Positions 42,362 to 45,575 of a DNA stretch of 64,000 nt are shown here, in pieces. A model generated the notes under the pieces. The model had not been told where the DNA came from. It saw nothing but the letters and a program-made list of their open reading frames with translations, and did not search any database. The number at the start of each line of letters is the position of its first letter. Within the stretch, counting starts at the first letter, position 1. The translations under genes and the position numbers were made by a program. The stretch covers positions 1,351,069 to 1,415,068 of the forward strand of contig NZ_CP017881.1 of assembly GCF_002761295.1 (NCBI RefSeq), in the 5' to 3' direction. The DNA comes from Methanohalophilus portucalensis. GTDB taxonomy: Archaea > Halobacteriota > Methanosarcinia > Methanosarcinales > Methanosarcinaceae.

Positions 42362-43663
42362 ATGACGGGTAACGCTAAATCAACCATATTAGTAGTCGAT
42401 GATGAAGAATCCAATCTGGATCTGATGGATGCTTATATGGAAGATGAATATAATTTAGTATTCGCTTCCAGTGGTACTGAAGCACTTGAAAAAGCCAATG
42501 AAAATATTGACCTAATACTACTTGATGTTTTGATGCCAGATATTAGCGGTTTTGAGGTTTGCCACAAGTTAAAATCCAATAATGATACCAAATATATACC
42601 TGTTATACTTGTAACTGCCCTTTCAAAAAGAGATAATCTTCAAAAAGGCATTGACTCAGGAGCAGATGATTTTCTGGCTAAGCCTGTGGATATGCTTGAA
42701 ATTCAAATAAGGGTAAAGTCCCTTCTGCGTATCAAGCACCAGCGAGATACTATCATAGAGGACAAGAACAAAGCCCAAAAATACCGCGATCATCTCGATA
42801 AACTTATCAAAACATCCCCGATTGCAATTCTCTATCTTGATAAAAATAGAAATATACTAAATGCTAATAAGAGTGCAATTCGTTTGCTTGGTTATGAAGG
42901 AGAAGAGATTCTGGGGAAAAACATTTCCGGCATACTCAAAGATGATTCAAATCTGGAAATGGAAGATAAAAGTGATTTTACAATTGAGTTTTTACAAAAA
43001 AATGGCAAATCAGTTTCAATGAATGTTTCGACATCAATGGTGGAAGATGAAGAATCCGGCACCGGAATGATAGTCACTATGCAGGACCTGAAGAAACTTA
43101 AAGGATTATTCATTACTCCATTGACTGAAAGGGAATATAATGAAGACGTTAGACTAGAATTGAGTTCGATTGAAAATGGATATTCATATATTATTGATAA
43201 CGCAGATTTCAAGACCGGTTATGATGCCTTCTCATGTTTTGTCAAAAGTGGTTACCATGGACTTTGCATCTCCAGAATGAATCCGGATCATATTCGAAAA
43301 AGCTATGATTTGTATAAAACACCTCTCATATGGTTAACTAAAAATCAAAATAGTACAGATCCTGTTATCGAACCTTCTGAAATATTTAAAATTCCTCCTA
43401 CAATAACAAATTTTATTGACAAGGTAGAAAATGGCCTTATATTTATTGACGGGCTTGAATATCTGATACTTGAAAATGATTTCCGCTCTATCATTAAATT
43501 AATTGAACAGATAAATGATAGTATAATGGCTTCATCATCCAAATTGATCATCCAGATTGATCCTCACACAATGGAGCAAAAAGAATATCATTTGTTTAAA
43601 AGATGGATGAGGAAATTACCGCTTGATGCAATTGAAAATATTCAGTTGTCCAATGATATATAA
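42362..43663 (+). CDS. Response regulator - PAS - DUF835 protein
   Basis: The ATG at 42362 has GGAGAG before it; an upstream start would add only a hydrophobic run from untranslated sequence. The 433-residue protein begins with a receiver domain (acidic pocket Asp13-Asp14, phospho-acceptor Asp55 in LLDVLMPD, Thr/Lys in LVTALSKR and AKPVD), then a PAS domain (about 150-255), then a C-terminal DUF835 domain (about 275-430: YDAFSCFVKSGYHGLCISRMNPD, then TNFIDKVENGLIFIDGLEYLI). DUF835 resembles a degenerate P-loop fold and is frequent in methanogen signalling proteins. It heads an operon with the CheF-like and KaiC-like genes. The phosphodonor is probably the divergent kinase. Confidence 0.9.
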   Translation: MTGNAKSTILVVDDEESNLDLMDAYMEDEYNLVFASSGTEALEKANENIDLILLDVLMPDISGFEVCHKLKSNNDTKYIPVILVTALSKRDNLQKGIDSGADDFLAKPVDMLEIQIRVKSLLRIKHQRDTIIEDKNKAQKYRDHLDKLIKTSPIAILYLDKNRNILNANKSAIRLLGYEGEEILGKNISGILKDDSNLEMEDKSDFTIEFLQKNGKSVSMNVSTSMVEDEESGTGMIVTMQDLKKLKGLFITPLTEREYNEDVRLELSSIENGYSYIIDNADFKTGYDAFSCFVKSGYHGLCISRMNPDHIRKSYDLYKTPLIWLTKNQNSTDPVIEPSEIFKIPPTITNFIDKVENGLIFIDGLEYLILENDFRSIIKLIEQINDSIMASSSKLIIQIDPHTMEQKEYHLFKRWMRKLPLDAIENIQLSNDI

Positions 43664-43680: not shown

Positions 43681-44871
43681 ATGATGGAAGCTGATGCTTA
43701 TTTTCTTCCCGATGTACCTCAAATGCTTACTGTACTTGGATCAAATGACCTTAATTGGAAACACGGTACGGTATCTTTTGACGAAAAAGGAATCTGGCTT
43801 CCTTCACCAGACGGATGGGAACTTATACCGACAAAAGCAATTGAAATTGTTGGTAGAAAATTGCCTCCTTCTTTTTTAAACAAGATAAAGGCAACGTGTG
43901 ATGCACCTGAAAGTATTGCCATTGACTATCAAAAGAAATCTTTTTTCGGTTCTCGCTACATCACTACCAGCCTTGTTTTTGCGGCTGAGGAAGATTCAAT
44001 TACTGCAATACGCCAGTTTTTTAATAAAGAAATTGGTTTCCAAAAGGATGCTATTCTGCAGGAACTCAATAGTGAACACCTGAAGATGTTATTGTTGTTG
44101 GCAAATGGAATTAATAATACAAAAATGCTGGCAACTATGTTTGATAGCAGAGAACTTCTTGTTAAGAAATTGTTACAGCAATTAATCTCAATGGATCTCA
44201 TTGATGAATCTACCAACCTCAAACTCCGGGGAAAGGCCTATATTAATGAGGTTTTCGGGGAATATACACAGACAAACAACGGGCCTTATTTTCCAAATAG
44301 TGGCCAGGAAAAAACAGGTGGACCCGACGAATTAACTGAAGGAAAAGTATGGATTGAACATAGCCGGAATGACTCTTTTGTTTCAGGGAGTGTAAGTAAT
44401 AGTGATTTATTTGCTTTCATTCCTGTGGAAATACAATCTGTAAAGATGGGTGAAATGAATGAAAATATACAGAGTTTGATTATTTATACAGCAATGGAAG
44501 ACAAAATAAATCTGCATTCAAAGGATGCAGTATTCCTTTCTGCCATATAGATCGCACTTGAAAGAACCTGTGATCCCTATTACAGGATACTTTCTTTCTT
44601 TTACACAGGAAACACAGATGAAGAAAAAATTGCAACAAGGCTTGCTATTCCCTTGGAAAGACTTAATGGAATGATCAACAACCTCAAAAACGGTGGATAT
44701 ATTGATTCCGATAATAACCTTCTTTCAGCCGGGTTTGATAAATTAAAATTACAAATTGGTAAAATAGATAATAGTAACGTTTCTTATAGTACACATAGTT
44801 CAAGGCAGAATGATCTGAATCGAGAAAGTGAAAGAAAGAAACTTCTTGAAAAAATAGGTGGTATTCAATGA
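43681..44871 (+). CDS. CheF-like taxis protein with one in-frame TAG codon
   Basis: The frame from ATG 43681 runs to TAG at 44548-44550 and continues open in the same frame to TGA 44869-44871, for 396 residues with TAG at codon 290. The N-terminal part (about 10-130) resembles the beta-rich domain of archaeal CheF, followed by a winged helix (about 137-195), a second beta region (about 220-290) and, after the TAG, a second winged helix (LERTCDPYYRILSFFYT, DEEKIATRLAIPLERLNGMI). The sequence after the TAG is clearly protein-like and completes the second half of a duplicated beta-plus-winged-helix layout. CheF links phosphorylated CheY to the archaellum motor. TAG could be read as pyrrolysine, be read through, or be an amber mutation giving a 289-residue product. 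Confidence 0.82.
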
Positions 44872-45575
44872 GATTTATTGATACGGTACAAGGACTTAAC
44901 AATATATTTGCTAATGATATTCCAAAGGGCAGTATAATCTTGGTTACTGGTCCCCCCGGGACTTTAAAATCAGGTTTGACTTTTTCCCTCCTATCCAATT
45001 ATCTGGAAAACAGTGATGAATATGGTGTTTATATTACCCTTGAAGAAAGTAAGGCCAGTCATCTGAGAAATATGGATAGTATGGGACTGAAACTTTCAGA
45101 AAGGCTTTTCGTTTCCGACTATAGTGATTACAGATTGAAATTTGAGGAGGCATCTGGAAATGAGAACCTTATAGAAGTTATCGGCAATAATATAATGAAA
45201 TACAAAGAGAAAAAAGGAGAAAAGTTCACCTGTCTGGGAATCGATTCTCTCGGCGCACTTTATTCTTTGATGGATACGGACCCATCCAAACTCAGAAAGC
45301 AACTGTTTCACCTTTTCGAACCCCTGAGAAGAGAAAATATAACAACATTTGTTATATTTGAAACATATGATATCATTGGCCAGACCCAACAATCAAGTGG
45401 AATGGAAGGTTATCTTTCAGATGGCATTATAGATATGATGATAAAAACAAAGGACAATTCGTCCCAGAGGTACATACAGGTAAAGAAAATGAGAGCAACC
45501 TCTCACAGCATGGATCCTTACATACTTACTGTTTCAGGTAATGGTATTGAAATCTACAAAGACACGACATTCTAA
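44868..45575 (+). CDS. KaiC/ArlH-like ATPase
   Basis: The 235-residue protein is a single RecA-fold KaiC domain: Walker A GPPGTLKSGLT, the catalytic glutamates in YITLEESKASHLRNM, and the Walker B-like strand FTCLGIDSLGALYSL. It is close in size to ArlH (FlaH), the KaiC-like ATPase of the archaellum motor that can receive signals through CheF. Its ATG overlaps the CheF-like stop by 4 bases, so it is translated with it. No archaellum genes are in the window, so this may be a separate signalling module. Confidence 0.87.
   Translation: MRFIDTVQGLNNIFANDIPKGSIILVTGPPGTLKSGLTFSLLSNYLENSDEYGVYITLEESKASHLRNMDSMGLKLSERLFVSDYSDYRLKFEEASGNENLIEVIGNNIMKYKEKKGEKFTCLGIDSLGALYSLMDTDPSKLRKQLFHLFEPLRRENITTFVIFETYDIIGQTQQSSGMEGYLSDGIIDMMIKTKDNSSQRYIQVKKMRATSHSMDPYILTVSGNGIEIYKDTTF

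Follow-up and report, generated by a model that had tools for sequence, protein, structure and literature searches.

The stretch analysed here, referred to as the window, comprises 64,000 nucleotides of the genome of Methanohalophilus portucalensis (contig NZ_CP017881.1, positions 1,351,069 to 1,415,068 of the forward strand) and carries a gene with a single in-frame TAG at codon 290 (Table 1). The frame is otherwise open and reads M...SAI, TAG, IALER...GGIQ, TGA, with 289 codons before the TAG, 106 sense codons after it and the terminal TGA at 44869-44871. The initial annotation had counted 107 open codons past the TAG, a number that is reached only when the stop is included, while the open frame itself was confirmed. 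The product is laid out as a CheF-like N-terminal region followed by two winged-helix repeats. The Pfam winged-helix family PF24409 matches once on either side of codon 290, which agrees with the earlier description of a second winged helix mirroring the first half, and its cut-off of 27 bits is reached by the read-through product alone (32.9 bits; the halves score only 15.7 and 20.9 bits). The order of REC-PAS-DUF835 regulator, TAG-containing gene and KaiC-like ATPase is kept in nine genomes, that of the window included.

Table 1. Features of the TAG-containing gene and its operon (positions in the window), and other genes with in-frame TAG codons (positions in the loci read, with genome positions in brackets). 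G006 is the sister species.
Feature	Position	Strand	Detail
Full-length read-through gene	43681..44871	+	396 residues; residue 290 = TAG (pyrrolysine candidate)
In-frame TAG, codon 290	44548..44550	+	TAT (Tyr) in the G006 orthologue
Weak CheF-arch match, residues 21-86	43741..43938	+	13.6 bits, below the cut-off of 25
Winged-helix repeat 1, residues 135-207, before the TAG	44083..44301	+	PF24409
Winged-helix repeat 2, residues 303-357, after the TAG	44587..44751	+	PF24409
Receiver-PAS-DUF835 response regulator, upstream operon gene	42362..43663	+
KaiC-like ATPase, downstream operon gene	44868..45575	+
ATGA overlap of full-length gene TGA and KaiC-like ATG	44868..44871	+	4 bases; also present in G006 and G005
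PAS-GAF-HATPase histidine kinase	L067:72-1745 (470072-471742)		TAG codon 85, inside PAS domain
MtaA-type methylcobamide:CoM methyltransferase	L067:8594-9655 (478594-479652)		TAG codon 290
SAM-dependent methyltransferase	L067:11254-11934		TAG codon 89, inside methyltransferase domain
DinB-type DNA polymerase	L075:11883-12974 (1301883-1302971)		TAG codon 236
Phage-type integrase	L070:3832-5439	-	Two TAGs, codons 189 and 267, within integrase domain
G006 KaiC-like ATPase	L084:4231-4992		TAG codon 64
G006 TYW2-type methyltransferase	L085:14768-15589		TAG codon 102

Orthologues of the gene were sought among 80 relatives. Alignment of codon 290, which had been proposed as a check, found the orthologue of the sister species to be full-length, with 83% identity, collinearity over all 396 codons, no stop and a Tyr codon (TAT) one base away from TAG. 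Homologues in other genera likewise continue through the site, and neither TAG nor another stop was found at codon 290 in any other match to the gene among the 80 relatives; hence, a conserved functional pyrrolysine site of the methylamine methyltransferase type was rejected. In an alignment of 14 further distinct homologues (L013 and L029 being one protein), column 290 is occupied by Y, H, R, E, F, S, K and Q, and this range of eight residues implies that the site is tolerant. The collinear orthologue, the homologues running through the site and the PF24409 score passed only at full length indicate that the frame is more than a chance open one. The possibility of two adjacent genes in the same frame was also rejected, as no ATG, GTG or TTG lies within 33 codons past the TAG, the first ATG is 40 codons on, and the orthologue is a single gene. 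No orthologue was found in the congeners G001-G004 and G007, and several congeners lack the entire operon, which makes the gene an accessory one within the genus. Two scans of genome contigs found no relative.

Comparison with the sister species gave a dN/dS of 0.291 before the TAG and 0.245 after it, values that do not isolate the time since the mutation, the TAG being in the M. portucalensis copy alone. Among 15 downstream residue differences, scored at sites with enough aligned homologues, the window's residue agrees better with the family at 8 and that of the sister at 6. Nothing in these comparisons suggests decay after the TAG; they do not date the change, and a very recent loss would be compatible with them.

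The reading of the product as a taxis protein is weak. Its likeness to CheF (PF04283), an archaeal chemotaxis adaptor, consists of the weak match of residues 21-86, which at 13.6 bits falls short of the curated cut-off of 25; no CheF-arch match was obtained in the window's genome at E<=0.01, and the genus is non-motile according to PMC6491703. A chemotaxis role was rejected on these grounds. Unlike CheF, the product has a C-terminal half of two winged helices, and in the loci read its gene lies beside DUF835 and KaiC-like genes. Other members of its family match CheF better (best E 3.5e-6); the N-terminal region is plausibly a remote relative of CheF, though not plausibly a member of that family. 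KaiC-like ATPases and DUF835 have been assigned to archaeal signalling (PMC5847659). Judged from gene order and domains, the protein is likelier to act as regulatory partner to the KaiC-like ATPase than to have a CheF or chemotaxis role. Single-sequence structure prediction of the full 396-residue protein gave no usable fold (pLDDT 35).

The genome, a single contig of 2,084,875 bases that is 99.99% complete, was searched for pylTSBCD as had been suggested, and the complete set, the absence of which would speak against pyrrolysine, was found. PylS scored 692.8 bits (cut-off 550), and pylB, pylC and pylD were likewise above their NCBIfam equivalog cut-offs; PF21360 gave no PylC match, and the PylC equivalog model did. 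A tRNA-Pyl with the anticodon CTA precedes the pyl genes. The genome therefore encodes tRNA-Pyl (CUA), PylS and PylBCD, as expected of a host of pyrrolysine-containing proteins, together with one copy of aRF1 above the cut-off. The known in-frame TAG is present in two mtmB copies and one mtbB. A third MtmB homologue (G000:C1:546785-548131, locus L058) is full length without a TAG.

The pylB gene (L032:6879-7940, minus strand) ends in TAG directly before the start of pylC. Of the 16 relatives read, 12 share this TAG end, among them all seven congeners, which with the present genome makes 13 of 17; among the relatives without it, another frame may have been read in L131. Such an end has also been described in M. 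mazei, M. acetivorans and M. burtonii (PMC2933860), and a feedback role of this terminal TAG is possible.

The earlier observation that genes here stop in TGA or TAA, with TAG being rare, holds in the window, where 40 called genes end in TGA (24), TAA (15) or TAG (1, the TAG of codon 290), and in a larger, 882 kb sample covering 42% of the genome (window and pyl locus included), where 646 called genes end in TGA (326), TAA (312) or TAG (8). Six of these eight TAG-ended calls, namely the present gene, mtbB, the PAS-GAF histidine kinase, the MtaA-type gene, the integrase and DinB, continue beyond the TAG through the remainder of a known domain or protein, and only the TAGs of pylB and cofC look terminal. 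The SAM-dependent methyltransferase with an internal TAG at codon 89, which likewise continues past it, was missed by the gene caller. Its TAG and those of the histidine kinase, the MtaA-type gene, the integrase and DinB all fall in Pfam domains. A control set of junctions, at which TAA or TGA lies between two coding-like stretches, was collected by the same selection rule; 38 were found and 37 were scanned against Pfam, one long TAA/TGA junction being omitted. None of the 37 had a Pfam domain across the stop (two had no Pfam match at all), as compared with four of five TAG cases at the same threshold. Ordinary nonsense mutation would not favour TAG in this way, as TAA and TGA interruptions within domains are absent from the 37 scanned junctions while most in-frame TAGs lie in such positions. 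Judged from these sequences, TAG is usually a sense codon in this genome.

The other interrupted genes differ in how widely their TAG is shared. For example, codon 236 of DinB is CAG in all seven congeners and TAG in the window's genome only, whereas the TAG of the MtaA-type gene is also found in G007 (87% identity), with Leu in related copies. The TAG of the histidine kinase is identical in G007 (93% identity), and past it dN/dS is 0.114 over 472 codons (59 synonymous and 33 non-synonymous codon changes), a constraint which implies translation past the TAG if the latter goes back to the common ancestor. A histidine kinase iORF with an in-frame UAG has been listed for M. acetivorans, M. mahii and M. 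barkeri (PMC3639795). The kinase is a stronger candidate for pyrrolysine in signalling than the codon-290 gene. It sits a few genes from corrinoid methyltransferase genes.

Decoding of codon 290 as pyrrolysine is well supported, at the level of sequence, by the full pylTSBCD set, the near absence of TAG as a stop, the other internal TAGs and the TAT of the orthologue. The TAG is probably a pyrrolysine sense codon that arose by a recent, neutral Tyr-to-Pyl substitution and allows partial truncation. A single base change from TAT to TAG would have occurred recently, in the window's lineage, at a position where the family accepts many residues. Pyl-tRNA(CUA) charged by PylS would then compete at the TAG with the single canonical aRF1, as in the competition model summarised in PMC9499178; part of the ribosomes would complete the 396-residue protein and the remainder would end at residue 289. 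In M. acetivorans, a reporter with a TAG gave about 20-30% full-length product (PMC2933860); here, proteins of 396 and 289 residues are expected side by side. The complete product would be a signalling or regulatory partner, with two winged helices, of the flanking REC-PAS-DUF835 regulator and KaiC-like ATPase. Pyrrolysine would have no special role in it, and with TAG so rarely serving as a stop in this genome the change would be effectively neutral.

A plain amber nonsense mutation would instead leave a protein that ends at residue 289 and a decaying gene, with pyrrolysine decoding too weak or irrelevant. As expected of such an event, the TAG is confined to a single genome and differs from a Tyr codon by one base; the accessory nature of the gene, whose whole operon is absent from several congeners, indicates that loss is tolerated and that a nonsense mutation could persist; and the partial read-through of the TAG reporter in M. 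acetivorans (PMC2933860) points the same way. However, the downstream part shows no sign of decay, either in its dN/dS or in its balance of family-fitting residues, and under ordinary nonsense mutation domains should be interrupted by TAA and TGA no less often than by TAG, which the control contradicts. Simple loss is thus unlikely. An error of sequencing or assembly, the true base being T, would restore the Tyr of the sister species by a single base, but the genome is a nearly complete single contig, other single-base TAGs behave alike and two of them recur in another species (G007); such an error is the least credible of the explanations considered.

It had also been proposed that a pyrrolysine-containing protein would link methylamine metabolism to signalling, with the supply of Pyl-tRNA setting the output. 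When pyrrolysine is scarce, the 289-residue form with one winged helix would be made and lost translational coupling would lower the yield of KaiC-like ATPase; with plentiful pyrrolysine, the form with two winged helices would be produced. The TAG does lie between the two repeats, the full-length stop overlaps the KaiC-like start while a stop at the TAG would leave a gap of 317 bases, and partial decoding at the TAG is plausible. Against this, the TAG is unconserved, as the sister has TAT and the remaining homologues have no stop at this codon; unrelated genes, DinB and the integrase among them, also contain TAGs in frame; and RNA folding downstream of the TAG showed no notable structure (z -1.21). 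A switch of this kind is therefore very improbable. Of the original proposal, the predicted decoding is well supported and the link is not: a private TAG at a variable column, with similar TAGs in DinB, MtaA and the integrase, favours neutral drift, and a special regulatory role for the TAG of codon 290 is unsupported.

Neutral acquisition of pyrrolysine has precedents. As cited in PMC3639795 and PMC2933860, Heinemann et al. (2009) found pyrrolysine to be non-essential for the activity of the tRNA-His guanylyltransferase Thg1 of Methanosarcina acetivorans, which was taken as neutral evolution. As in the Thg1 case so cited, the present TAG is private to one species; its site is variable and a close relative has a sense codon one base away, as expected for neutral acquisition of this type; the gene and genus are different, and the pyrrolysine of Thg1 was tested experimentally whereas that of codon 290 is predicted from the sequence. 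Likewise, TAG makes up 1.6% of the stops in 'Candidatus Methanomethylophilus alvus', for which many pyrrolysine proteins beyond the methylamine methyltransferases were predicted and whose authors proposed that mutation to TAG is stable under such conditions (PMC4153887). The neutral route has been argued for both Thg1 and the Candidatus M. alvus genes (PMC3639795, PMC4153887). The present genome resembles that of M. alvus in that TAG is a very rare stop (8 of 646, most of them internal), but it belongs to a different methanogen order and the present gene is one of KaiC-linked signalling. Kivenson and colleagues (Science, 2025) reportedly described an archaeal 'Pyl code' in which all TAG codons are read as pyrrolysine. 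The present genome is similar in having TAG almost never as a stop and many internal TAGs, but TAG apparently remains the terminal codon of its pylB and cofC.

The present case adds a probable one-step change from Tyr to pyrrolysine in a protein that is not a methyltransferase. The genus appears to treat TAG mainly as a sense codon, with the consequence that standard annotation splits real genes or calls them pseudogenes. The TAGs of the histidine kinase and the MtaA-type gene, being common to two species, are direct targets for distinguishing drift from retention of pyrrolysine in the proteome.
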